Shown piece by piece: positions 3-27,850 of a stretch of 31,236 bases of DNA (positions are counted from its first letter, which is position 1; the number at the start of each line of letters is the position of its first letter). The stretch comes from Spirogloea muscicola (lineage: Eukaryota > Streptophyta > Zygnematophyceae > Spirogloeales > Spirogloeaceae), in NCBI GenBank assembly GCA_009602725.1, contig WELB01000129.1:341574-372809 (forward strand). The letters run 5' to 3'. Position numbers and translations under genes: made by a program. The notes under the pieces are model-generated. The model saw only the letters and a program-made list of their open reading frames with translations, had not been told where the DNA came from and did no database searches.

Positions 3-1638
3 GCGCCGATCCCGGCGCCGCGGCGGGAGGAGCTGCGGCGGCGGCGGCGGCGGGGCGCGCTGGTGGTGGCGGCGGCCATGGCGCCCAACGACGGCGTGCG
101 GTGGTGGGAGAAGGACGGGGGCCCCAACTTCCACGACGTCCGCTCGACGGCCGAGTTCGTGGAGGCCCTCGCCGCCGCCGGCGACCGCCTCGTGCTCGTC
201 GAGTTCTTCGCCACCTGGTGCGGCTCCTGCCGCGCCCTCTACCCCAAGGTCAGCGCCCCCCGCCGCCCTCTCTGCCATCTCTGGTATCTGGGCATCAGTT
301 AGCGCTTCAATCAGCGCTTCAGCTGGCGACCTCTGTGTGCTGACTCGTGGTTACTGAGCGGGCCAGCTTAGCAGCAGGCGATGTACCATCTGTCAGTGTG
401 CTTGCCTCTGTGCTTGGTCACTCAGGCCCTCCATCACTCGATACACACTCTATTGCACCAGTCAGCGACCTTCAATGACTGCCTCGTGGTTGCTGAGCGG
501 GTCAGCTTAGCAGCAGGCGATACACATCTGTCAGTGTGCTTGCCTTTGTGCTTGGCCACTCGAGCCCTCCATCATCCAATACACGCTCCATCTCCCCACC
601 CTCTCTATGCACCTGACTGGCTTTCACAGCCGCTCTTTATCATCAGCAGCCGCATCCTCCCTTCGTTTCCTTTCCCCACCGCCGTGTATCTTGCCGCATG
701 CCCGTCGCCAGCCCGCCTGTCGTCGCCTGGATCGTCGCTCTCTGCCGTACCTATTGCGGCGTGCTGGCAGCCATGAAGCTAGTCTGCCCATCGAGCTGCT
801 TGCAGCGCCGACGAGTCGACATATTGCCAACAGCACCTTACTGAGAGTCGCTTCCTCGGTCGCGACGTACATCACCGATCGAGGTTCTGGGGTTACTGTC
901 TGACACGGCGGCAGCATTGCTGCGCATTCGATGCCCCTGCAGCTGGTGAAGCTGGCGCAGGAACACCCAGACGTTGAATTCCTCAAGGTCAACTTTGACG
1001 AGAACAAGCCCATGTGCAAGAGCCTCAACATCAAGGTGCTGCCCTACTTCCACTTTTACCGCGGCGCTGACGGGCAGCTCGAGGCCTTCTCCGCATCCCT
1101 CACCAAGGTGCGCAAAAGCTCGTGCCGCAAGCTCCCTCTCGCACTAGGCGGGCTGTCATACTTTGACTTTTGATGGGATAAGCTTGAAGCAGACTGGCCA
1201 TGGTCGTCAGCGAGGCTGCTGTTGTACTTGTGCGCCTGCCCAAAAGCTCAGAAGCAGGATGTATTCTCGTTGCCACTGGCTGCTTGTTAGCTCTTGGCGT
1301 GTACGTCTCCTTCATTGGTCTGGTTTGAAGCAGAAGGTTGCAAAGAAAGGCCTTCCTTTACTCGCCGCTGTTGTTGGCAAGTATTGGTTGCCTTGGCAAC
1401 CGAGCTGGTAGCCGGGCTGGAGCATGTTATGAATATGGGGCTCATGCTGAGGCCGCGATTGCATGCTGCGCATCTGTGGCCTTTGTGTGTGCAGCTCCAG
1501 AAGATCAAGGACGCACTTGCAACGCACACCACAGACCGTTGCAGCCTGGGCCCGCCGCGCGGTATTGGCGACCTGGATCTGAGTGGCGCGCTGGCACCAA
1601 AACCGGTGGAAGCCGCGACGGAGTCTGCTGCACGGTGA
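3..1638 (+). CDS. ACHT-like atypical thioredoxin, chloroplast (5' end outside window)
   Basis: Three exons are visible: 3-248, 943-1107 and 1495-1638 (TGA), all joined in phase 0 with GT/AG borders. The reading frame is open to the window edge and the protein should have a plastid transit peptide, so the start probably lies upstream; an internal ATG at 78 is the only ATG seen. Exon 1 carries the RWWEK segment and the redox centre WCGSC (216-230), followed by RALYPK. Exon 2 gives [19 protein letters not shown] and the cis-Pro region [13 protein letters not shown]. Exon 3 gives the basic/CSLG tail typical of this family. ACHT proteins are plastid thioredoxins that oxidise 2-Cys peroxiredoxin targets and relay light-dependent redox signals (family knowledge). 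The two introns are 694 and 387 bp, and the first contains a tandem 140-bp repeat. Family assignment is confident; the paralogue is not determined. Confidence 0.85.
318..595 (+). repeat. Two tandem copies of a ~140-bp repeat inside the ACHT intron 1
   Basis: Copy one begins near 343 (CTCGTGGTTACTGAGCGGG) and copy two near 483 (CTCGTGGTTGCTGAGCGGG). Both continue through AGCTTAGCAGCAGGCGAT, CATCTGTCAGTGTGCTTGCC and GCCCTCCATCA. By eye they agree at most positions over about 100 bases. A third, inverted copy lies at about 2525-2636. Confidence 0.8.
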
Positions 1639-2520
1639 TTGGGGCCACGATGGCCGCTACGTTCTTGAAGCATGCAGACGCCAGGCTTATTCAAATGTGC
1701 TCCTTGGGTTCGCTGCACATCACGTTCCCCTGGATGCGCCACTGTGCCTAACATTTGCTTCTTGTGGCCGCCAGTCAGCCCGCGGCCATAGTAGGGCTAC
1801 CACGCCTAGTTGCTCGCACGCTCGCTCTGGGAGGGCTGCTGCCTCGCCTGGTCTTTGTGCCGCGTGAGGGATGCTCAATAGTGGGGCCAGTCTGCACCTT
1901 AATGTATTAGAGTTGTGCATGCAGTTTCTCTGCAGCTGGGTGACAGTCATTGCTGTTACCGAGCCACTGTGCGATAACCACGGATTCCTGGACTTGCTTC
2001 AACTTAGCAGATGCAGATGCTTGTGTGAGCTGTGTCTGAGGGACTCGTGCAACCGAAGACAGGGCGGCAATCGTTGCCAAGGTGCATGTGGCCGGCCAGG
2101 ATGGAGTTGCTGCTCGGACAAGCGCGGCACTACGTCGGTTGCCCGTGCGAAGCCAGAGCTCCTGCGTTGCTTGGACGAATCGCCAGCGTGTTGAGCTTGC
2201 AAGTTGCAGCTCCGAGTGCCCTAGCGAGTCAGTGGAGCGCAGTATGGCCGTTGCGGCTTGCACGTCCCGTTACACTCCACGTGGTGGCCTTGCTGATGGC
2301 CCCCATGCAATCGGTCAAGTTCTTGTCAGACCCCAACGACCAGCGCCGCAGTGCTGTTGCCGTCCCCCTTCGCCACAGACGCGCCGTTAGTCATGCGCCG
2401 CTGGTCAGCTGCAGCATCAGCAGTAGCAGCGTGTGGCGGAGGCTGGGACGGCTGGGCGGGTGCAAGCTGCGAGTAGAGTTCACATCGTGTAGTGACTGAT
2501 AGAGGGCGAGCTGCAAGCGG
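1639..2520. other. Downstream region of ACHT, no gene recognised
   Basis: This should contain the ACHT 3' UTR. No canonical AATAAA was seen close to the stop. Open frames here are short, overlap one another on both strands and show no recognisable domain. Nothing else is supported. Confidence 0.5.
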
Positions 2521-2524
2521 AGGG

Positions 2525-2636
2525 ACGATACAGCGTGTAGTGGTTGATGGAGGGCCTGAGTGGCTAAGTACAGAGGCAAGCACATCTACAGATGTACATC
2601 ACCTGCTGCCAGCCGACCCGCTTAGTAACCACAGGT
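2525..2636 (-). repeat. Inverted copy of the ACHT-intron repeat
   Basis: Read on the minus strand, this gives CTGTGGTTACTAAGCGGGTC, a CAGCAGGTGATGTACATCTG stretch, TGTGCTTGCCTCTGT and CACTCAGGCCCTCCATCA. It is a diverged inverted copy of the units at 343 and 483. A weaker partial copy of the CCCTCTATCA...CACTACAC part follows near 2490-2515. Confidence 0.75.
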
Positions 2637-2639
2637 CTG

Positions 2640-2770
2640 CCAGGCATGGCCAAAAAGCGCTTTCTTGAAGCTTTCCCAATAGGATGATCACCCAGTCAGT
2701 GACTTTAGTGAGAAGCCGCAAATCAGAAGAGACCAGCAGCCGGAAAGCCAGCACGAGGATGCAAGAAGAG
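2640..2770 (+). repeat. Copy of a dispersed repeat end-block (R block)
   Basis: The order AAAGCGCTTTCTT, then CAGTGACTTTAGTGAGAAGC, CGCAAATCAGAAGAGACCAG and CAGCCGGAAAGC recurs in diverged form at 12805-12922 and 18995-19115. An inverted version lies at 12136-12240. It looks like a boundary block of an uncharacterised repeat family. Confidence 0.6.
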
Positions 2771-2989
2771 GTCCTCCCTGGTCGATGACTGATCAGTGGA
2801 TAGAGGAGGGGCCATCTACTGGAAGCATCTACCGTTTCAGTTTGTGGCGCCCACCACGCCAGGTGTTTGCTGCAGGGCCTTCCTCGGGGCTACGTGGGCG
2901 CCCACCTCGAGGGCCCTCTTCCCCCAGCTGCGCAGCTCCTCCCTCCGTCCCTACCGCACACGCCCTGTCCTCGGGAGAAAAGCGGTCAT

Positions 2990-3476
<487 letters not shown>

Positions 3477-3489
3477 TCCCCCCCCCCCT

Positions 3490-4011
3490 TCGTGCATGCT
3501 CCGGCGCCCCTTCCGAAACTTCCCTCAACCCCCACCTTCCACCTTTCCCTCACCTCTTCCTACCCTCCCTCAGTCGTCCAAGAACTGCAATTCTGATTGC
3601 AGCAGCCGCAGCAGCGGCAGTACCAGCTGCGTGTGCGATGGGCGATCATGTTGCTGGCGGCGCCCCAGTGCCGTCGTTGCTTAAATGTAAGCACCAGCAC
3701 CACCGCCGATACTGCTGTGGATGGTCCACCGCCCACCACTTGAGCAGCCTTGCTTACGGCCGGCGGCCAGTCCCGACTGGCAGGCCTGCTGCTGCTGCTG
3801 CTCGCAAGCGGCGCATCCAGCAGCCCCGAGAGCCCCCACACTCCGCGCTGCACATGGGCGCCCACGCCCTGCCCCTGGTTTGAGGTCCGCACACCTCCGC
3901 TGTGCTTTGTCCTCTGATGCCGGCCCCCGCTGTGCTCGGCAACGATGGCAGTCTTGGCTGCCGGAGACTGCGAGCTCACTGCAGCTTGAGCTTGCGGGCG
4001 GCGTTTTGCAG
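3490..4011. other. Upstream region of the tocopherol-cyclase-like gene; first exon not resolved
   Basis: An Ala-rich hydrophobic stretch (ILIAAAAAAAVPAACA, about 3589-3640) followed by a GTAAGC donor-like site at 3688 could be a signal-peptide exon. No ATG or phase-consistent junction to the exon at 4012 could be established. Elsewhere the region is CAG/CTG-rich with no recognised domain. Confidence 0.3.
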
Positions 4012-5872
4012 GGCTGGTACACGCGCGTGGTCGACGCCGCCACAGGCAACAGCTTCGCAGCGGTCGTGGGGTCTATGAGCGCCACCGGTTAGTCGGTGGT
4101 CATGCTGCTGGCTTCGCACAGCGCCGGCAGTGCCGTTGGCGGGAGTTGCCAGGCGATCATCGACGACCCGGCGCATGCAGCGACCAGCAGGCAGCGCTGC
4201 CCCACCATCGCCGGCGGCACCTCGCTCACGTACGTGTCCCAACTCATTGTCTCGGTGAGCAATTCTTAAGTACAACCACTAACAGTGTGGGATTGAACAT
4301 GTTGGACGCCATTGCTGATGCTTGAAAGTAAATGACCAGTGAAACACCAGTGCATGCTGCAGGACTCACATCTCGGCTAGAGGTATGTGCTCACAGCAAA
4401 TAGCAATAACATATCTGTGTTTTCCGCCAACGGCAGGACGTCAAGATCACCACGGGCGGCGCAGACGTGGTGGTCGATCCTCCGGACAGTGCACCTGCAG
4501 CAGTGGAGTGGCATTCAGCCAGTTATGGCTACTTCGTTGCTAACGCCTCCGAGACATACATCAGGCTAACTGCCAGTGGCACGACCTTTGCAGCGGTGCT
4601 CACGAGTCAGGTCAGCATCAGGCGGCACTGTACCTGGAGCCAGAGGCCACGTGACCAAGAAGTAATGTTACCTGTAACTACTCATATTAGTAGCATGAAC
4701 GAATTCATGCAAAGAGGTTGCTACTTTGTATCACTAGCATTTTCAGCTCGAGGTGCATAACTGGAGGTTGCACAAAGATGACTGGCTTTTAGCGCCACCG
4801 TAAATGGGTTCTGACACACTGCTCCCAGGGTTCTGACACACTGGTCCCATGGCGAGCAGGATACCCTGGCGCCGGCCCTGAAGGCTGGACGGCTGCTGTG
4901 CAGCGGCGCCTGCCTGTGCTCCCCACCCGGTGGCACGTTCACAGGTGAATTGTGAATCTACTCACATCCCCACATCCCCATCATTGTGCTTGCTTTGCAC
5001 GTTGACCAGCCGAGTCCATGAAGACTGAGATGACTACAATAAATCTCGACACTCTGTAAGAAGCCATTTTGCAACTTCTCATTGTTCTTGTACCTTGCCT
5101 CTGCTTCTGTGCCAGCCTAGGGTCTTTGGCGCAGTATAGCTTCAACAATGCTAGCGCAGGTGTTGTGCTCGCTGGGCATGGCTTGGGGCATGAGGAGAAG
5201 AACTGGGGCAATGCATTCCCAGCAGGTCACGTTTGGGCGCAGGCCATCAGTGAAGACAACTCTGTGCAGGTGAGTAGGTGCCCTTATAGCCCTTGCTTTA
5301 ATTGTTGATTTAATTTTCCTCCACCAGAAGATATGGCAGAGATTCTTCACCATTGCCGACAGCCCAAAGTCACGATTTATTACTTTCCATATCCTCATGG
5401 GTGCAATTATGGCTTGGATGTTCTGGTGGTATTACAGCTTGTGCTCGGGGCGGCATACTTCTCCATAGGATTGGTTCAGACGCCATATGTCGCATCGGTT
5501 GGCCTGCGTGCCCCATCGCTGGCGCTGGACTTAAGGTCCACTGATTTTGGGACCTACTTCTCACGGATCGCCGTGCATCCATGTGATGGCCGGCTGGACA
5601 TCGTGGCTCGGACATTTACGCGCAAAGTGTCCATCAGCTTCTCGGCTCCACCATCCACATTCTCTATCCCCATCTTTGGGCCAACTAGCCAAGCCTTGTG
5701 GCTGCCAACGTGTCAAGAGTCGTTTTCTGCTGTGGCGCACATCAGTATCGAGCGGCTTGGCTTCCAATGGCTCTGGGCTGCTTCCAGTCAGCCTACTAAA
5801 TATAGGATTGAGCATGCTGCGCTAGAATTTGGTGAAGAAGTCATGTGCTCAGCACGTGCTGAAATCCAGTAG
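4012..5872 (+). CDS. Tocopherol-cyclase-like family protein, probably extracellular; 5' end unresolved, in-frame TAG
   Basis: Five exons fit with matched phases: 4012-4254, 4437-4610, 4829-4944, 5116-5269 and 5438-5872 (stop TAG). Segments recognised in order are GWYTRVVDAATG, WHSASYGYF, VPWRAGYPGAGPEGW, WHVHSLGSLAQYSF, HEEKNWGNAFPAGHVWAQ, VGLRAPSLALDLRS, SISFSAPPSTFSIPIFGPTS and an ALEFG tail. These match the family that includes plant VTE1 (the EKNWG and GWY motifs), but the tail and glycine-rich pattern look closer to the secreted homologues known from fungi and protists. The substrate is therefore unknown, and tocopherol cyclisation should not be assumed. An in-frame TAG at 4090-4092 interrupts the first exon although the frame continues sensibly after it. 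Together with the missing N-terminus, this means a pseudogene or a sequencing error. AATAAA lies 229 bp after the stop. Confidence 0.72.
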
Positions 5873-6100
5873 AGCGTAACTGCGACTTTTGAATACTGAA
5901 GGTTCATTCATCGATTGGATCGGCAATTCATGTGCAACAAGGTTGGCCAGAAGCTGAACTTAAGCAATGGCTGACAGCCACGCCTTTTAGCATCCAGAGG
6001 ATAATGTTCTCTGCTATGCTGCCAAAACCTTGAGTACTTGGACTAGGGCACGTCGCTCATTACGAAGCTTCCTGAGGCTGCAGATTTGACAAAGAATACG

Positions 6101-6106
6101 AATAAA
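6101..6106 (+). terminator. Polyadenylation signal AATAAA
   Basis: A canonical AATAAA lies 229 bp downstream of the tocopherol-cyclase-like stop codon, with a TGTAA motif 14 bp later. Confidence 0.5.
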
Positions 6107-6599
6107 AGAATAATCCTCCTGTAACCTAACTCATTGTACTCTTCTACTGCGCAGCCAAGAGTGGTGCTAGCAACCACAGAGAAAGCTCCTAACTATCTGC
6201 AGGACAGTGAATTCGAGCTGCAAATAGCACAGACCACAGCATCTGACACAAAAAAAATCACCTATGGCAGAGGTTGTCAAAGTGCACAACGACAGAATTG
6301 GAGGCAAACAACCACCAAGACCTGTGCTTGGTGGCGGCAGCCTAATCATGGTGAAGGAACAAAATATGGCATGATGGTAGCAGGTCAGCGTGACATTGCC
6401 AGGGTTGCTCCATCATCTGAGTAGCCCTTCCGGCAGGGGCCCTTTGCTGGTTGAGAGCTTGTCCAGCGAAGCCTGAGGAGAGTGCTGCGGGCTGCTCCAC
6501 AATGGAAGAGATGCAGTCAGTATGGACCAACTAATTGCAGGAATGCAGTCGCAGAGTTGTGTACTTGTGCACTCTGAGCTTTGAGTACATTATGTAATA
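6107..6599. other. Spacer between convergent genes
   Basis: This holds the 3' flanks of the tocopherol-cyclase-like gene (+) and the JmjC gene (-). An open frame at 6134-6424 has no recognisable domain. No strong minus-strand AATAAA was seen. Confidence 0.5.
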
Positions 6600-11498
<4,899 letters not shown>

Positions 11499-12930: not shown

Positions 12931-13254
12931 GGCCAGTACGATGCAAGGCGTAAGCCATGGACCGCTGGAGTGATATGGTAAGGTGCATACGAAAGACCTG
13001 AGCTAGCAAGCGGTGGCGCTGTCGTGCCTGCTCGTATAGTGCTCACTACGCGTCAAAGTGCCACACCTGAAGCTTTGCCTACAGGCCAGGACTCTGCTTT
13101 GTCAGCTAGCAGTATAGCCTGCCCTGCATGGCCTCACTACCAGGTGAGCAGACTTGCAAAGCATGTGGCAGAGGAGTCACCACCACCCCCCCCCGCTGCC
13201 TGGACCTTAGGTAGCTGCATCCTCTGAGGGTTAAGCATCCTAATTATGACAGCG
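12931..13254. other. Short region without a gene
   Basis: No domain or RNA gene was recognised. It contains a short C run at 13190-13196 and lies just downstream of the integrase-PHD fragment on the minus strand. Confidence 0.4.
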
Positions 13255-13410
13255 CTATGCGCAGCACGGGCAGAACCACTGCCCCGCCGGCACCTCAGCA
13301 AGAGGTGGTTGTAGGCAGCCAGTGTGCCACCCCTCATATCAACGGTCGCATAGCAGCATGGGCGGCTCAGTGTTCAAGCCGCCACACACTTCACACCTCA
13401 ACCCCTCCAT
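13255..13410 (-). other. PHD finger at the C-terminus of the retroelement integrase
   Basis: The ligand pattern is C-x2-C (CEVC), C (LLC), [TGA], H-x2-C (HTGC), C-x2-C (CPCC). Also present are the hydrophobic MLLCD and LQPPLAEVPAG stretches and the invariant WFCP. PHD fingers commonly read the histone H3 tail, so a targeting role for the integrase is an inference. Confidence 0.8.
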
Positions 13411-14906
13411 CGGCCACGCCAAGGTGTAGTCGATAGTGCAGTCCAGGTCGGGAAGATGGCACGGCGCACAGTCGCGCTGATGCTCCGCGACCGTGGATCC
13501 GCACCGGCCCTGCAGCAGCAGCACGCCGCTGGGCCTCACCTCCTTCACTTGCAGGACGACCTGCCGGACACCCGCGTCCAAGGTGCTGCGCTGCTGGCGC
13601 TGCACGTACACGTAGTCGTGCTTCTCGAACTTCATCACCCGTGGCTGGTACTTGCCCGACCGCACCTGCGCGTAACGCAGCTTGTCGCGATGCTGCGCCA
13701 CCGCCAGGTTGTCCATTGCCATCTGCATGACCCTACGGAAGAGCCTCCCGCGCTCCTCGCAGATCGCCACCAAGCGCCCTGGGCTGTTCATGTCCACCAC
13801 TGGCTCCACCCGCGGTCGGATGGCAGCTGGCAGCAGAGGATGCCTGCCAAAGAGCAAGAAGTGCGGCGAGTAGCTTGCCAGCGCCGCCTGCTTACTCATG
13901 CGGTACCCCATCAGCAACCAGGGGAGGAAAAGATCCCAACCCCTGGTGTCCCTCTCCAGGCAGAATTTCCGCAGTCCCCGCTTGATGGTCTGAACCATCC
14001 GCTCCGCCTGCCCGTCCGCCTGTGGGTTGTTACGCGAGGTTGTCCGGTGGTCGATCAGAGCCACCTCCAGGAGCTCGTCGATTGCGCCACGGAACTCGCT
14101 GCCGTCGTCGGTCAGCACCTCCGCGCAGGCCCCAAAGCGCACAACACCCGATCCAAGAAGCAAGCTGAGATCAGCGAGCTGGACTTGTCTGGGATCGCCA
14201 CAACCTACACCCACTTGCTTGCATGCTCGACCATGATGAGACTGTAGCGTTGCCCACGCTTCGACAGTGGCAGCTCGCCTGCAAGATCAAGACTCCACCT
14301 GTAGAAGAGTCCGTTGATGGGGAGTGGATGCAGCTCCACGCTGCGCACCGTGAGGTTGCCTCGGACGCGGTCGCAGGCCTGGCACCGCGCTACCACCGCA
14401 GCCACATTCCTGGCCATCCTTCCACCAGTGACCACACTCCACCAGGCTGTAGGGCCTCTTCACCCCAAAGTGCCCAAGCATCTCATGCTGCTGCAGCACC
14501 AGCGGCGTCCGCTCCGCTGGCCTGGGCACCACTGCCTCCCCACCATCCGACTTCAGACGTAGAAGGTGGCCCTCGCGCCACCGGTACCGTTGCGCCCGCT
14601 GCTGCACACGGTCCTTGCTCGCCTTGCTCCTCCCTAACGGATGTTCAGGCCTTTGGAGGTACTCCAGCACCTCCAAGTCGCTCCACACGTCCGGATCACC
14701 CCCAGCCGCCTGCTGGGAGGTCTCCCCTGGCACGGCCTCGGAGAAGTGTAGTCAATCTGCCTCCTGCCACGGAACCCCCCTCACGTGCAATATGGCTAGT
14801 GGCAAAGCCTAGCAGCTGCGGCATGGCTCCACGGCGACGGTACAACCTGGAGGTCTCTTCCTTCACGGCGGCCAGGCTATGCGCTACCCACGCGGTCTTC
14901 AATCGT

Positions 14907-14966
14907 CGGCTCCCGCTCCACGCTCCCGACGCTCCCAATGCTCCCGACGCTCCCGCTCCCGCGCTG
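14907..14966. repeat. Short GCTCCCGAC tandem repeat
   Basis: About six imperfect copies of a 9-mer (GCTCCCGAC/GCTCCCGCT) lie within the linker of retroelement block C. Confidence 0.6.
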
Positions 14967-15367
14967 CCGTTCATTTGAGACGATACGGTGGTCGGACTGT
15001 GCCGCCACACCAGAGATGACTCCAACCCGTATTGCACCATTCCAACATCACATGCATGCGCCCCAGCCACAGAAGGAGACAACCTGCGCGGGCCCCTATC
15101 CTGGGTGGTCAGGAGGTTCAGGGCCCGGGTGCATTTGTCCGCTGGTGATAGAAGCGGCTGCCGCGTGCAGAATTCATGCTCTTCGTGCGTGTCAAGCAGC
15201 TGCAGCAGCATCGCCGAGGCAGACCACGCGGGCAGCTCCACTTCCTCACGGTCGTGGTCAGCTCGCGCCACGCTTCCGTCTCGCGTGCTCGGGTTGGGGT
15301 TGGGACTTAGGCCGTCCGCGTCCAGGTGCACAACCCCCGCGCGATGGCGGATCTCAAAGTTGTACTC

Positions 15368-16022
15368 CTGCATCGCCACCGGGCTGGCGGCGGTGCTGGC
15401 CAGCGGCGTGCGCGTCAAGCGGTACGTGTACGTCGACCCGGATCCAGTGGCGCAGGCGGCAGCAGCGCACCACATCCGGCGGCTGATGGACCAGTACCCG
15501 GAGCTGTTGACCCCGGAGGCCATCAAGGGGTACCTCACCACCCTGCCGGCCGACATCCAGTTGGTGGGCCCACACCACCTGAGGGTGTTTGGACAGGTGG
15601 ACCTGGTGGATGCAGGCTGGGAGTGGCAAGGGCATTCCAGTGTTGGTGCAGGCGGAGGATTGGCTGACCACCGCTCACGGCTCTTTTGGGAGCTGGAGCG
15701 TGTTTTAGCGCTGCTGCAGGGGGGGCAGGAGGCTCCCCTCGCACACATGTTGGAGACGTGCCGGCAGGCGACGACCGCCGCGAGAATGTGCGGCGTGACT
15801 TTCAGGTGGTGGAGAGCCGCATTGGGCGCGGCGTGCCTCTGGACGCAGCTGCTCTGGGCAGCCGCGCGCACCGGCTGCAAATGAAGTGGACCAATCTGAC
15901 GCAGCCAGAGTTGGTGGAGCTGCGGCCGCGTTAGTCAAGCGCCCAGCCGGGCTGCTGGTGGCGGATATATTGGACCCGGGGAGGGTGCCTCAGCCGGTGG
16001 AGAGGGACGACATTCCTCCTTT
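15368..16022 (+). pseudogene. Retroelement block A, part 1: DNMT3-like cytosine-5 methyltransferase domain (inactivated)
   Basis: The translation starts inside motif I (IATGLAAVLASGV; its F-x-G is cut off at the junction). It continues with the acidic strand YVYVDPDPVAQAAA, LPADIQLV, and the motif IV region VDLVDAGWEWQGHSSVG with ADHRSRLFWELERVL. Motif VI is broken: the frame shifts at about 15751-15760 where ENV is expected (GAGACGTG). It then recovers as VPAGDDRRENV..., with GVPLDAAALGSRAHRLQMKW, WTNL and VADILDPGRVPQPV. The order and spacing are those of DNMT3-type cytosine methyltransferases. The catalytic Cys of motif IV reads Trp (TGG), so this copy cannot be active. It lies directly upstream of reverse transcriptase on the same strand, apparently as part of one polyprotein. 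Confidence 0.78.
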
Positions 16023-16390
16023 TAGCGCATGTGCGGCGACTACCGCCCCCTCAATGAGGTGACCCAGCCGGATAGGTACCCGATGCCCACACCGGATGAG
16101 ATCTTTGACGAGCTGGGTGCAGCGCGCGTGTTCAGCATCTTGGACTTGCAACAGGGGTTCAATCAGATTGGGATCAAGATGGAGGACAGGGCAACGACAG
16201 CCTTTTGGGGAGCGGAGCGGCTCTACCGTGGACGCGCATGCCATTTGGGTTGCGCAACGCCCTGGCCAGGTTTCAGCGGGTGATGGACCAGGTCTTGGCG
16301 GGGTTGCGCTTCGCAAAGTGCCACATCGACGACGTGTTGGTGTTCAGTACAACGGTGGCGGAGCATCTGGCGCACGTGGAGGCTGCGGGC
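16023..16390 (+). pseudogene. Retroelement block A, part 2: reverse transcriptase
   Basis: The translation gives MCGDYRPLNEVTQPDRYPMP, DEIFDELGAARVFSILDLQQ (fingers and first catalytic Asp region), GFNQIGIKMEDRATTAF, then after a frame shift near 16210 RMPFGLRNALARFQRVMDQV. CHIDDVLVFS follows, where the YxDD box reads HIDD. Domain order and motifs are Ty3/gypsy. The upstream part of RT is missing between the methyltransferase tail and this start, so an internal deletion is likely. Confidence 0.85.
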
Positions 16391-16886
16391 CTTCCTTGGC
16401 TTGGCAAGCTACTATCGGCACTTTGTCAACGGCTTCTCCGCCGTGGTGAAGCCGCTGAACGAGCTGTTGAAGAAGAGGAAGCCGTGGGTGTGGACAGCGC
16501 TGCGGCAGCAGATTAAGGAGCGCCTGTCATCTGCGCCGGTGCTGAGGCGGCCGGACTACTCCAAGCCGTTCCACCTACATACGGACTGGAGCCGACTGGG
16601 GCTGGGAGCAGTGTTGGTGCAGGAGGAGAAGGAGGGACAGAAGTATGTGGTAGCGTATGCGAGCCATTCACAACAACTCCGCGGAGGCGAACTACAGCTC
16701 GTACGAGGGCGAGTGCCCTTGCGTTGTGTGGGTGGTGGTGCACTTCCGTCCCTACTTGTATTGCAGGACATTCCTGTTGGTGACCGACCATCAGCCGCTA
16801 AAGTGGCTGATGACAAATCAGAAGCTTACAGGAAAGCATGCGAGATGGGCACTCATCCAACTTTGAGATCCGCCACCGTCCAGGTG
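16391..16886 (+). pseudogene. Retroelement block A, part 3: RT thumb/RNase H
   Basis: Contains SYYRHFVNGFSAVVKPLNEL, VLRRPDYSKPFHLHTDWSRL (RNase H first Asp in HTDWS), GLGAVLVQEEKEGQKYVVAY, then after a shift near 16670 NYSSYEGECPCVVW and LLVTDHQPLKWLM (DHQPL). It ends at the palindrome centre. Relative to block B, about 11 bases are missing just before AACTTTGAGATCC near 16860. Confidence 0.85.
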
Positions 16887-17378
16887 CACATCCCCCACGC
16901 GATGGCGGATCTTAAAGTTGTACTCCTGCAGGATGAGTGCCCATCTCGCATGCTTTCCTGTAAGCTTCTGGTTCGTCATCAGCCATTTTAACGGCTGATG
17001 GTCGGTCACCAACACGAGTGTGCTGCAATATAAGTAGGGACGGAAGTGCACCACCGCCCACACAACGCAAGGGCACTCGCCCTCGTACGAGCTGTAGTTC
17101 GCCTCCGCGGAGTTGTGAACGGCTCGCATACGCTACCACATACTTCTGTCCCTCCTTCTCCTCCTGCACCAACACTGCTCCCAGCCCCAGTCGGCTCCAG
17201 TCCGTACGTATTTGGAACTGCTTGGAGTAGTCCGGCCGCCTCAGCACCGGCGCAGATTACAGGCGCTCCTTAACCTCCTCGAACGCCTGCTGCCGCGGCG
17301 CTGTCCACACGCACGGCTCCCCCTTCTTCGACAGCTCGTTTCAGCGGCTTCACCACGGAGGAGAAGCCCTTAAGAAAC
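16395..17378. repeat. Large inverted repeat (palindrome) of RT/RNase H sequence
   Basis: The plus-strand block up to 16886 and the minus-strand block from 16887 encode the same RT-thumb/RNase H region head to head. The centre is GTGCAC at 16884-16889. The inner ~330 bp per arm are nearly identical (for example AACTACAGCTCGTACGAGGG at 16691 and its complement near 17080), and similarity declines outward. Confidence 0.85.
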
Positions 17379-17476
17379 TGCCGATGGTAGCCTGCCGAGC
17401 CAAGGAAGGCCCGCAGCCTGCTGGTGGGCACTGGCACGCGCATCAAGGCATCCACCTTCGTCGCATCTCTCCGCAA
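16887..17476 (-). pseudogene. Retroelement block B: RT thumb/RNase H fragment
   Basis: From 17476 downward: DALMRVPVPTSRLRAFLGSA, GYHRQFLKGFSSVVKPL, then LRRPDYSKQFQIRTDWSRLG, EEKEGQKYVVAYASRSQ, a frame change near 17120, NYSSYEGECPCVVWAVVHF, VTDHQPLKWLMTNQKL, and LQEYNFKIRHRVGDVHL. It is a second copy, related to but different from block A, truncated at both ends. Confidence 0.85.
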
Positions 17477-17479
17477 GCA

Positions 17480-17840
17480 CTAGTCACGAGACGGATCGCA
17501 AGCCAACTAAGTCGTCGCCTCTCTCTCTCTCTCTCCCGCGTGCGCCTCCTGCGCCGCTGCGCGGTCAGCCCCGCCGGGGGATCTCTCACCGCTTCGGCCC
17601 CCGACCGTCCCTGGCCTGGAGCGCGCACCCTGCGCGGCGCCTGCCAAACCCTTGCCTTGTGGAGAGATGGCCTCTCTCCGCAGTCCGATCTCTCAAGAGC
17701 CCGCCCCGCGAGGGGGGGTCAAGGCACCAGGTACAGGGACTTGGTGCTCAGCGCCTCGGGGCTCTCCAGCCCATACGGGTTGCGCCCTACCCAGCGAGTC
17801 ACCCCATGGGTTGCCCCCGCTGAGGTTCCCTATATCTCTT
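17480..17840. other. GC-rich region, nothing recognised
   Basis: Starts with a short CT run (17519-17534). No coding domain, RNA gene or LTR end (TG...CA with primer-binding site) could be identified. Confidence 0.4.
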
Positions 17841-24128: not shown

Positions 24129-27100
24129 ATGGTCGGAAGCGCCGCGGCGGCGGCGGCGGCGGCTGCGGCGGCAGGCAAGGCGCTGCGGTGGGGCGGCTCC
24201 GCGCTGCTGGGCCAGCGAGCGGCGGGCCTGGCGCAGCCCAAAGCGGCGGCGTGGGCCTCGGGGCTTCCCCCACGGCGGTCGTCGTCGGCGCGCGCCGTCA
24301 TCAGGCGCCGCAAGGACCCCGAGCTCGACAAGGTGGGCAGGCCCCTGCCGCCAAGCTTCCGCTAAGCTGGGGTTCGAACCCCTGAGGCCCTGCCGACGTA
24401 TCTGGGTCTGGGTTTAGCACAGGGTTTAGTAAAGGGTTACGCAACCGAGGTTTGGCGCTGCTGGCCTCGTGCTCACGACTGTCTTCAAAAGGCACAGAGC
24501 TCCACGCTTTGCTATGGCAAGTGTGTCTTCAAGTGTCAAACTCGAAGCTGTGAACCCGAAGTCATGTGACAAGCTGACCGGCGGAATATGGTCAAAGACC
24601 TGGAGGAGCAGACCTTAATAGAAATTTAGAATGCACACTTTACCCACGGCTTCATGTCTCAGTGCTCTGGATCTGGAAGCACATTAGCTCATACCTTGAG
24701 GCATCCACTTTCAGTGGACAATAGGCGGCTGCAGTCACAGGGTAGGCGCACGCTGTCGTGTACAAGCCCGTTCGATCCCTTAGCAAAGGGCTTAAGGGAT
24801 TGTTTATAATAGCAGTAGCTTGTTGTCATGTCGTTGTGCTCGCTGCCGCCGCAGTGCCCTCCATCAGTGATGTAGCCAAAGACTGAGCAGCTGTAGCTAT
24901 ACGGTAGGGCAAGCACAGTTGCCAGCACCAGCTGGCTGTCCAAGCTGCAGCAGATCCGGCAGATTGCTGCAGCTTGCATGGTGTTGAAGGTGATGGGCTG
25001 CAGCATTCAGCCGCTGCGGCTGATGTGATACCCGCGAGACTGGCGGCGCGGCTGCACAGGTAGTGCAGGTCGACAAGCCGCTGCGCCTGGTGGTGAAGCT
25101 CAAGGAGCTGCTGCTCAAGCAGCCCGAGCGCCGCATGACGCTCCGCGACCTCGGCATGCACCGCAGGTCGGCAGCGGAGCCTGCTTGCCTGACCTCGTCG
25201 CACAATATCAAGCAGCTCTCAGTGACTGCATGTTGAGTTTTGATACAAATACTTATCATAATTATAGCTTATATATTGAATGCTTGCGATGAGGCTCTTT
25301 TCCAGGCCAACTTGCTGCTTCACGGTCAAAGTACGAGCACTACGCCACTATCACTTCTGCAGTAGCTCAGTCACTCAAAGCCCAACTCCTGAGTTCCAAC
25401 AGGCACTTGGGGCTTTCTGGCAAGCGGCGGTGTATTGCGCTGCTGCGCAAGTTTCCAGCGGTGTTTGAGGTTGTGGACGAGTCCCACGGTTATGTGTGGT
25501 TCACGCTTTCGCACGAGGCCGAGGTGCTGTACCAGCGCGAGCAGGCAATCAAGCGCGATATGACCAGCCTGCTCGTGGACAAGGTGAGCGGCCCGTCGAA
25601 TACGGCTCGTAGTCAGTCCATCTAGCAATTTAATTTTCTCTTTGAGTGGCACGTCACAATTTGGCTTTGGGAATTTCTGTTCTCTTCATGCTCCCTTTAG
25701 TGTCAAAAGTAAGACTTTCAAGTCCTTCACCTCAAGTGCTTGAGCATTTTGCGTTGCGCCGCTAGGATTCATCTGCCTCACATCTCTTGAGCCTTTGCTC
25801 TCAAGGAGGTCCAGCGGAGACATGTAATCGCAAATAGCAAGTGCTCTCCGGAGCTAGTCTGCATCCCACTTGAGAAAGGATTACGCCAGTGAATTTGTCG
25901 CATTTTTGTTGCCCAAAGGAGGCACCTGAGTCTGCCACAGACTCTGATGTGTGCATGCACCCTGAACTGACTGAGCGAGGACGCAGCCAGGTCAGGAAGC
26001 TGCTCATGATGTCCATGGAGAAGCGGATATTGGTGGAGCACTTGACGCACCTGCGGCGCGACCTGGGCCTCTCCGACGACTTCCGAATAGAGATGGTGCA
26101 CCAGCACCCGGAGTACTTTGAGGTTGTCGACACGCTGGACGGGCCGGCACTGGAGCTCCGGAAGTGGGACGACCGCCTGGCGGTGACCTTCTGGGAGGTC
26201 AGGCAGAGCAGGAGTCGGGAGGCCGAGGCACGACTGCAGGAGGAGGCCCTGGCCATGGGCTTTCCAGGTCCGGAATCTTGCATCATTTGAGCATTCTCTG
26301 TCTGCTACGATGTTGGGGACTAGGCTTTGGGTTTTTATAGTCAGATTGAAGCCAGAGCTTGGAGCTTGGACCACACCGTACTTGCTCTTGTCAACATGCT
26401 TTCCAGGGCTGATAGTCCACTAGGCTCAAGCATTGGTGTCACGCAGCAAGCTTCTGCATCAATTTGACTCGTTGTAGCCTTGGAGACCAACTTGTCAACT
26501 TGGTGACTGACGTGACAAAACACCAGCAACGGCGCCGCCCTTTTTGTAATGAGTCAGTGTTGTCCACTTTGTCAACACGGTGGTTTTTCTGAGAGAGGGC
26601 AAGTCGAGGGCTGTCTGCATCACCTTCCGTAGCTAACAGCGCTTTGACTGCTTCTCCAGGCCCCAAGAGCCTGCAGCTGCCAAAAGGACTGCAGCTGAAG
26701 CGGAAGGACCTGGACAGCTTGCAGCGCTTTGCAGAGGTCCCCTTTGTCTCGCCATACTCAGATGCGTCACATCACCTGGACCCAACGTCGCCCGAGGCCG
26801 AGAAGCACAACGTGGCGGTCATCTACGAGATGCTTTCTCTGACGCTAGAGAAGAGGCTACTTGTGGACCACCTCACGCACTTCCGCAAGGACTTCAAGCT
26901 CACGCAGGTGGTGCATGAGCTATTGTGGCCTTTATCTGGGTGCTAGCTTGATGGTATCCTCGACATAGCCGCTCCTATTTGCGAAGAACGAGATATATGT
27001 TGCAGTCATTGGCAGCACAACATTGTCTTCGTGTCTCTCATAGCTTTGTGGTGGAACATGTTTGGTCGTCATTGACAACCCTTTTTCCCATTCACTTGGT

Positions 27101-27850
27101 GGCACAGAGGATCAGGAGTCTCCTCATCCGGCACCCTGACCTCTTCTACGTCTCGGAGAAGGGCACACGGGATTCTGTGTTCTTGCGGGACGCCTACAAT
27201 GGCACGGTCCTCAAGGACGAGGAGAAGGATACAATAACACTGGCCATGGAGGAGCTCCGGCGTCTGGTGTATGCTGCTCAGCAGGTAAACTTTGTCAAAG
27301 TGCACAGACTTCTCAAAACCTCAGTACGGCGACCTCATCTTTTAAGCGTCATCCACATTGCCGTGTTTAAGAGGCTCGGAAAATTGTTGGCCACTAAGAC
27401 CTCTACAGTCATGCCATAACTGGAATGTGAATTTCTAGGACGACAACCAGACTAGGACTGGAAGAAACCACAGATCATCGGTTGGCTTGTCCCTACTTGG
27501 CTCGCTGGATGTCAAGTCTCACAGCTGACACGTGTTCGTTGGCTGCAACCCAGAGCCAGAGGCTCAACGCCTTGACGGCAGCAGATGAAGGGTGGGGTGA
27601 GGACGACGGAGCAGCAGACGACTGGGAGCATAAAGAGGATGCCGATGACAGTATGTCAACAGCTACGCGATCTAGCACAGCTCCGATAGGGCAGAGGGGA
27701 ACCACTGAACGTCGTGAAGTTGAGCGATTGGGAAGCGTGGCCAAGTCACAATCGTCCCCCGTTCAGATCCCAAGGAGTCTGGCGGCCACGGCGAAGGTGG
27801 TCACTGTGTTGGAGAAGGACGACACGGGCCCTCCAAAGGAGCGGTGGTAG
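24129..27850 (+). CDS. PORR-domain (plant organelle RNA recognition) protein, organellar
   Basis: Seven exons: 24129-24332, 25060-25166, 25403-25583, 25991-26267, 26660-26907, 27108-27284 and 27554-27850 (TAG), about 496 aa with consistent phases. The N-terminus (poly-Ala, Arg/Ser-rich, RRSSSARAVIRRRKDPELDK) is a typical mitochondrial or plastid presequence leading into the PORR domain. The domain shows LVVKLKELLLKQPERRMTLR, RCIALLRKFPAVFEV, RKLLMMSMEKRILVEHL, HPEYFEVVDT, VPFVSPYSDASHHLD, LSLTLEKRLLVDHLTHFRKD and RHPDLFYVSEKGTRDSVFLR, in the canonical order. Family members bind organellar group II intron RNA or rRNA and aid splicing (WTF1, WTF9, RPD1 class). The last exon adds an acidic tail (DEGWGEDDGAADDWEHKEDA). 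An alternative acceptor at 27438 would give a short 29-residue end instead. AATAAA lies 73 bp past the stop. Confidence 0.92.

Follow-up and report, generated by a model that had tools for sequence, protein, structure and literature searches.

A Gypsy-type retroelement family of Spirogloea muscicola with a DNMT3-type methyltransferase ahead of a putatively leaky stop codon and a PHD finger behind the integrase

The capture of DNA methyltransferases (DNMTs) by retroelements is already known, since it is described in PMC5890265, PMC12344493 and PMC6338049. Of the elements in print, KnitGypsy-Dnmt3 of Klebsormidium nitens comes closest; according to the main text of de Mendoza et al. 2018 (PMC5890265), it carries its DNMT in the Pol open reading frame (ORF) and combines DIRS-like repeats with Gypsy domains. 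In two further papers, some DNMT3s are described as embedded in retrotransposons (PMC12344493), and DAM- and DCM-encoding retrotransposons are reported from green algae and charophytes (PMC6338049). DNMT-bearing retroelements have so far been reported from two lineages. Here we analysed a stretch of 31,236 nucleotides of the alga Spirogloea muscicola (contig WELB01000129.1; G000:C129:341574-372809), referred to as the window, together with the 153-Mb assembly of 471 contigs to which it belongs. We consider it probable that a Gypsy-type retroelement lies rearranged and inactive in the window, an uninterrupted relative of which encodes gag, protease and a DNMT3 in ORF1, and reverse transcriptase (RT), RNase H, integrase and a PHD finger in ORF2, with a readthrough stop codon in between and with a DNMT that would write and a PHD finger that would read chromatin marks. 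The Spirogloea family pairs its DNMT with a finger of histone-reading type, both under purifying selection.

The order of the family, gag-protease-DNMT-stop-RT-RNase H-integrase-PHD, is given by two copies, the uninterrupted L009 and the colinear L027, which belongs to the subfamily of the window copy and whose reading frames are broken in places (Table 1). ORF1 of L009 matches Pfam DNA_methylase (6.5e-12), whereas gag-asp_proteas (2.6e-4) and zf-CCHC (0.0024) miss the Pfam cut-off; zf-CCHC passes it in L010 (2.6e-5). ORF2 contains, in this order, RVT_1 (7e-30), RNaseH (8e-38), H2C2, rve and PHD (1e-9). Spacing was counted over all 100 methyltransferase matches in the genome, 71 of the 111 PHD matches and 38 of the 127 RT matches, the PHD and RT rows being picked by eye as family-like. 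RT and PHD follow downstream on the same strand in 11 of the 100 methyltransferase matches, with the PHD finger 3.64-3.92 kb downstream in eight of these 11, and 27 of the 38 RT matches have a methyltransferase match at most 2.5 kb upstream. The initial annotation had proposed one element with DNMT at one end and PHD at the other. Their co-membership and order are borne out by L009, L027 and the 11 loci, but the DNMT does not form an end, because the gag zinc knuckle and the protease precede it.

Copies without DNMT or PHD had been named in advance as the case that would speak against such an element. Eight of the 11 RT matches without an upstream methyltransferase match were inspected (C33, C104 and C7:875666 lie outside the set): C142 shows an assembly gap of N at the expected DNMT place, six (C39, C18, C7:652094, C7:1055911, C115 and C330) keep DNMT remnants, and C17, with protease and RT and no DNMT, represents an internal deletion. 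At two further RT places, C101 and C36, no DNMT was found within the 4 kb inspected, and both have gag remnants, those of C101 on the other strand. N runs inside family copies (L046, about 5300-6780; L101, 2105-4098) can mimic DNMT-less or rearranged elements. Public proteins do include DNMT-less PHD relatives, P0069 and P0075, in which RT-RNase H-integrase-PHD stands behind a weak protease match and no DNMT was found; PHD and DNMT are therefore separable.

In the window itself, positions 13020-17460 consist of five pieces of this family in scrambled order, as mapped on L027 (83-89% identity). This mapping, together with Pfam for RT, RNase H and PHD, recovers DNMT, RT and RNase H on the plus strand, and RNase H, integrase and PHD on the minus strand, about where the initial annotation had placed them. 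Read on the minus strand, the locus is an RT-RNase H-integrase-PHD copy broken up by a reversed DNMT-RT-RNase H segment, with both inversion points near the RNase H end. Methyltransferase motifs and RT/RNase H do share one strand; that the former run straight into RT is, however, due to a deletion in the window copy. Here, 973 bases (L027 3889-4862) have no counterpart at window 16019/16029, and with them the C-terminal part of the DNMT and the junction with its stop are gone; on the plus strand of window 15300-17500 there is no TAGCAA. Pfam returned no DNMT match on the window's own ORFs, and the fragment is secured by its relatives, with 100 genome matches to its 123-aa block; the 71 Pfam DNA_methylase matches in the genome include places outside the retroelement family. 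The window copy is dead: its DNMT is scattered over three frames, begins inside motif I, which the inversion point truncates, and shows Trp in place of the catalytic Cys (motif IV); the end of the DNMT and the junction of the ORFs are lost, and a TGA interrupts the PHD finger. The arms of the inverted repeat at window 16380-17419 are only 88% identical (12% diverged), which argues for an old repeat and against a sequencing palindrome.

DNMT and PHD could alternatively stem from unrelated elements or host genes that were joined in the window by nested insertions. The rearranged window with its inverted arms and the opposite-strand methyltransferase fragments less than 3 kb apart at ten genome places would suit such an origin, which is hard to reconcile with the uninterrupted L009, the colinear L027, the repeated spacing in 11 loci and single public proteins that contain DNMT, RT, integrase and PHD; we regard it as highly improbable. 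A nested-insertion chimera was accordingly rejected on the grounds of L009 and L027. The opposite-strand matches amount to 14 pairs, on contigs C19, C24, C27, C51, C66, C91, C129, C183, C268 and C365, and these foldback copies may have arisen by template switching, self-integration or later inversion.

Between DNMT and RT the family carries a conserved stop codon, which was evaluated in 16 loci that span this junction (L016 and 15 of L030-L045). A stop stands at the junction in 14 of them (13 TAG, 1 TGA), with CAA as the next codon in all 14; 12 of the 16 show stop-CAA-YYA (11 TAG, 1 TGA) and two more stop-CAA without YYA. The alignment keeps one frame across the stop in all 14 stop-bearing copies, and the stop of C330 lies five codons past the aligned place. 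The codon after CAA is TTA in five junctions, TCA in four, CCA in three, and CGA and TCG in one each. Because the residue after Gln thus changes between Leu, Ser, Pro and Arg, yet the third base remains A in 13 of the 14, the pattern points to selection acting on the nucleotides after the stop. In a 10-row junction alignment, invariant columns make up 5 of 9 in the stop plus hexamer versus 20 of 142 elsewhere (p 0.007, a guide only, as the copies are related). Moreover, three DNMTs of the window subfamily have a GC content at third codon positions of 0.73-0.83 and use CAA for only 4 of 46 Gln codons, yet their post-stop codon is CAA. This subfamily shows TAG-CAA-CCA or TAG-CAA-TCA at nine places, eight of which were found by searching the stop pattern itself (the ninth is C326), so that misses cannot appear; the frame is shown for two (C25, C21), and in C15 the pattern adjoins the methyltransferase match in rearranged order. 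A change of the genetic code as cause of the stop was rejected, given TGA in one copy and TAG in the others at the same place and a frame without other stops in L009.

According to PMC2754532 and PMC4973966, CAR YYA after UAG is the essential tobamovirus readthrough signal, and UAG CAR NBA is a yeast consensus. By its nucleotides, the stop context of the family is of the leaky tobamovirus type. DNMT would then likely be made together with Gag, and RT-integrase-PHD by readthrough; the single polyprotein frame proposed earlier gives way to two in-frame ORFs separated by this stop. The stop might instead be an ordinary terminator, with ORF1 and ORF2 made separately (by reinitiation, by internal ribosome entry or from a transcript that is spliced or starts at an internal promoter) and CAA-YYA an ancestral coincidence. 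Such a view can appeal to the two stopless junctions among 16 and to the lack of conserved RNA structure downstream of the stop (-0.85 kcal/mol). Against it stand the single frame kept across the stop in 14 copies, the conservation of the hexamer at the nucleotide level despite a changing encoded residue, and the description in print of CAR YYA after the stop as the essential tobamovirus signal (PMC2754532, PMC4973966). Hence, we judge an ordinary terminator to be unlikely.

The methyltransferase classifies as DNMT3-type, as the initial annotation had suggested: its profile matches DNMT3A best among PDB entries (1e-22), followed by DNMT3C (1.4e-18) and DNMT3B (1.9e-18), with weaker matches to 4onj (a DNA methyltransferase, 4e-11), DRM2 (1.3e-10), HhaI (3.3e-10) and DNMT2 (2.4e-7). 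An alignment of 13 DNMT sequences (seven of this genome, six from public proteins) has in all rows motif I, the catalytic Cys, the EN of motif VI, the RxR and the motifs of the C-terminus, in unrearranged order; F18, G20, C106, E149-N150, R188/R190 and G318 are invariant. An AlphaFold2 model of the L009 DNMT domain reaches a pLDDT of 89.5 and a pTM of 0.90. The ratio of nonsynonymous to synonymous substitution (dN/dS) is 0.147 for the pair C134-C351, in a set in which 19 of 21 pairs are synonymously saturated (pN 0.23-0.47), and 0.23-0.32 in all but one of the six valid pairs of the window subfamily, rows with C102 being left out because L019 lies on the opposite strand. Viral relatives of the DNMT were found at 42 loci with 24-54% identity, mostly over short stretches. 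The DNMT tree comprises retroelement-type DNMTs only, and its rows P0006 and P0007 were labelled by hand.

The PHD finger has complete C4HC3 zinc ligands in six copies (L009, L011, L016, L027, L055 and L056) and a dN/dS of 0.135-0.26 in three pairs with dS <1.5. Its nearest solved chains include MLL3, KMT2D, CHD4, ATXR5, PHF21A, KAT6A, DPF3, BAZ2 and UHRF1, and several of these proteins read the N-terminus of histone H3 with unmodified K4. This likeness suggests that the element's PHD finger may likewise read H3.

Taken together, we regard the following course as probable. Translation would mostly terminate behind the DNMT, which would place the enzyme at the level of Gag, in particles and in excess over RT and integrase, and a few ribosomes would read through the stop to yield the full polyprotein. 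In the particle or in the nucleus, the DNMT would methylate CG sites of the element's own complementary DNA (cDNA) or of the insertion site, and the PHD finger on the integrase would bind the H3 tail, probably with unmodified K4, thereby biasing integration towards such chromatin. The location of the DNMT, with gag and ahead of a conserved stop of leaky type, predicts both the dose and the place of action of the enzyme.

A number of observations weigh against this course. The stop is not universal, because C134 and C365 (2 of 16) lack it at the junction and four public proteins with upstream DNMT (P0005, P0016, P0029 and P0083) have DNMT and RT in one ORF. None of the window-subfamily copies read over >9 kb (C25, C361, C21 and C142) is open throughout. 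In the DNMT, the window subfamily has Glu where the PC motif has its Pro (L014), and the Pro before the Cys varies. Synonymous sites are, as mentioned, saturated in 19 of 21 DNMT pairs, and the most recent pair, C361-C25, has a dN/dS of 1.02, as in decaying copies. The published assay of the Klebsormidium DNMT in yeast gave no conclusive result according to the main text of PMC5890265. The DNMT is under purifying selection by its low dN/dS in most pairs and, given the value of 1.02 in the youngest, was probably kept while elements were active and decays after insertion.

The DNMT could also serve the host, or act elsewhere than on the element's cDNA, e.g. by being kept for slowing transposition or by methylating RNA. 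Such options are discussed in the main text of de Mendoza et al. (PMC5890265), and its position on the gag side would package the DNMT with RNA as well as with cDNA. In view of a DNMT3-type sequence with DNA-methyltransferase motifs, we think it somewhat unlikely that the enzyme is used in this manner.

With respect to the element ends, both termini were read in two copies, and both copies show TGTCG...TGACA and, by eye, flanking 4-bp target duplications (GGCT in C2, GTGC in C328). Both features agree with a DDE integrase. C328 has the order A-ORFs-B-A-B, where A (about 390 bp) opens the element and recurs in the 3' region (96.2% over 395 columns) and B (209 bp) stands twice in the 3' region (98%); C2 has the order A-ORFs-B. 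At L054 1162, two extra bases (GC) separate TGACA from TGTCG between B1 and A2 of C328, as in the unprocessed junction of a circle with two long terminal repeats (LTRs). Ordinary LTRs were not found at L009, neither as repeats of at least 80 bp in a repeat search nor at the element ends on flank comparison. The search for an intact, LTR-bounded copy, as proposed at the outset, therefore yielded the uninterrupted relative L009 but no ordinary LTRs, C328, the sole copy read with both ends repeated, having split repeats. Features of Ty3/Gypsy elements are RT-RNase H followed by H2C2 and DDE integrase in one ORF, a CCHC knuckle and protease upstream, TG..CA ends and a short fixed duplication, all of which the family shows; two LTRs flanking the coding part are replaced by the split repeats of C328. 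As a consequence of these repeats, the family is filed as having a Gypsy-type Pol without being a standard LTR element. Split direct repeats are also a feature of DIRS/PAT elements (present here in one copy, C328), but Pfam finds a DDE integrase and no tyrosine recombinase in either ORF of L009.

To place the family among its relatives, public proteins were searched with the integrase-PHD region as bait, using the best 120 of 247 matches. Among the public proteins listed, RT-RNase H-DNMT-integrase-PHD occurs in one chain in 16 of 131 proteins, DNMT-integrase-PHD in 26, RT-RNase H-integrase-PHD in 36, and DNMT-RT-RNase H-integrase, with PHD detected or not, in 4. The DNMT thus appears at either of two positions, before RT, as in this genome, or between RNase H and integrase. 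A PHD finger is found in 120 of the 125 integrase-bearing proteins, a share biased upward by the bait. Sources given by name are, among others, Haematococcus lacustris, Closterium sp. and jgi/Chrzof1, which we take to be Chromochloris; no Klebsormidium name is among the matches listed. Integrase trees were built from 77 of 127 rows, leaving out 48 of undecided order and two on long branches. On the integrase tree, the two DNMT positions are strongly sorted (3 changes versus a shuffle mean of 25). A single clade of proteins with DNMT between RNase H and integrase was rejected (approximately unbiased test, p-AU 0.0002). P0001, P0002, P0003 and P0005 extend some 240 to 370 residues beyond the PHD finger, with text that by eye resembles a Rossmann fold or adenine methyltransferase (DPFxGxG ... 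SPP/SPW in P0002 and P0005).

A wider and distinctly tentative proposal, which we would sooner doubt than accept, is that these elements form an ancient green-lineage clade with its own kit for reading H3 and writing 5-methylcytosine. A leaky-stop DNMT3 at Gag stoichiometry and a PHD finger on the integrase for K4-unmodified H3 would rebuild in trans the logic of host DNMT3s, i.e. ADD plus methyltransferase, and new copies would land in, and be marked as, silent chromatin from insertion on. The kit would have been rewired more than once, with DNMT between RNase H and integrase in sister lineages, and both parts kept. The numerous public relatives turn the question of why a parasite would methylate DNA into a testable one.

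Table 1. Coordinates of the retroelement pieces in the window and of the two reference copies.
Feature	Position	Strand	Evidence or remark
RNase H end, integrase, PHD, 3' part, natural order	13020..15372	-	86% to L027 8185-5877
PHD finger	13261..13395 (= G000:C129:354834-354968)	-	Pfam PHD 1.4e-5; one in-frame TGA
Integrase, H2C2 zinc part and DDE core	13339..14751	-	frames broken; 135 genome matches to ORF 13339-14286; 49% to L009 ORF2; H2C2 0.0098, below cut-off
DNMT3-type cytosine methyltransferase fragment	15370..16019	+	89% to L027 3238-3889; 90% to L014 4553-5204
Reverse transcriptase fragment	16029..16383	+	86% to L027 4862-5217; Pfam RVT_1 2.4e-7 in ORF 16109-16516
RT end and RNase H fragment	16380..16875	+	83% to L027 5387-5904; RT_RNaseH_2 9.1e-17
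RT/RNase H fragment, part of inverted repeat 16380-17419	16870..17460	-	86% to L027 5936-5340; RT_RNaseH 1.1e-20
L009 (G000:C2:495000-504999), ORF1	1520-5755		1411 codons stop to stop
L009, ORF2	5756-8869		1037 codons, same frame, directly after one TAG
L027, gag	494-1668
L027, protease	2433-2858
L027, DNMT	3183-4186
L027, TAG-CAA-CCA	4526
L027, RT	4778-5482
L027, RNase H	5498-5896
L027, integrase	6657-7209
L027, PHD	7797-7949

Apart from the element, the window contains a host gene of several exons with a PORR domain (plant organelle RNA recognition) at 25293-27419 on the plus strand (Pfam 5e-10 to 1e-26), a JmjC-domain exon at 9393-9737 on the minus strand (Pfam 3.4e-22), from a chromatin gene of host type that lies within a few kb of the element, and a long CT/GA simple repeat at about 3000-3460, which reads SLSL or ERER in several frames. 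In keeping with a zygnematophycean host, an RbcS exon matches some RbcS chains better (1.5e-29) than others (2e-22), taken to be land-plant and Chlamydomonas chains, and 92 GRAS matches were found, whose repeated sets of loci are reminiscent of the triplicated Spirogloea muscicola genome. Peptidase_M11 gave no match, but neither did it in any control.

Compared to the systems described so far, we believe the pairing of PHD with DNMT, the conserved leaky-type stop and the two DNMT positions to be new; no report of an element with both DNMT and PHD was found among paper titles and abstract openings, a scope that excludes subscription papers, Repbase and the supplements of PMC5890265. KnitGypsy-Dnmt3 and the Spirogloea family are both Gypsy-type elements of streptophyte algae with a Dnmt3-type DNMT under purifying selection and with DIRS-like repeats, as far as the main text of PMC5890265 describes them. 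In that element, however, the DNMT is part of the Pol ORF, whereas in the Spirogloea family it stands on the gag-protease side of a stop conserved at 14 junction loci, and the main text mentions a stop codon only in connection with mutated DNMTs (PMC5890265). The Spirogloea integrase, moreover, ends in a PHD finger, a term that appears nowhere in that main text, the two elements being compared by description only (PMC5890265). SymbioDIRS-Dnmt3 and SymbioLINE-Dnmt of Symbiodinium likewise encode a DNMT in a retrotransposon, the former with DIRS-like repeats, but they carry a tyrosine recombinase or an endonuclease in place of a DDE integrase and are independent captures according to the main text of PMC5890265. 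Ginger1 DNA transposons have a Gypsy-integrase-like core and, in one listed family, Ginger1-9_HM, a PHD finger in the C-terminal part; they differ in being DNA transposons with Ulp1, and the passages on them in PMC2836005 mention neither RT nor DNMT. Among solved proteins, DNMT3A and DNMT3B are the nearest relatives of the DNMT domain. In DNMT3s, the methyltransferase is combined with an H3-reading, PHD-like ADD domain, whereas in the Spirogloea family the domain of H3-reader type lies on the integrase, in the other ORF. Chromoviruses, finally, are Gypsy elements with a chromodomain on the integrase; the Spirogloea family has in common with them a domain of histone-reading type at the integrase C-terminus, with a PHD finger in place of the chromodomain and a DNMT in addition.

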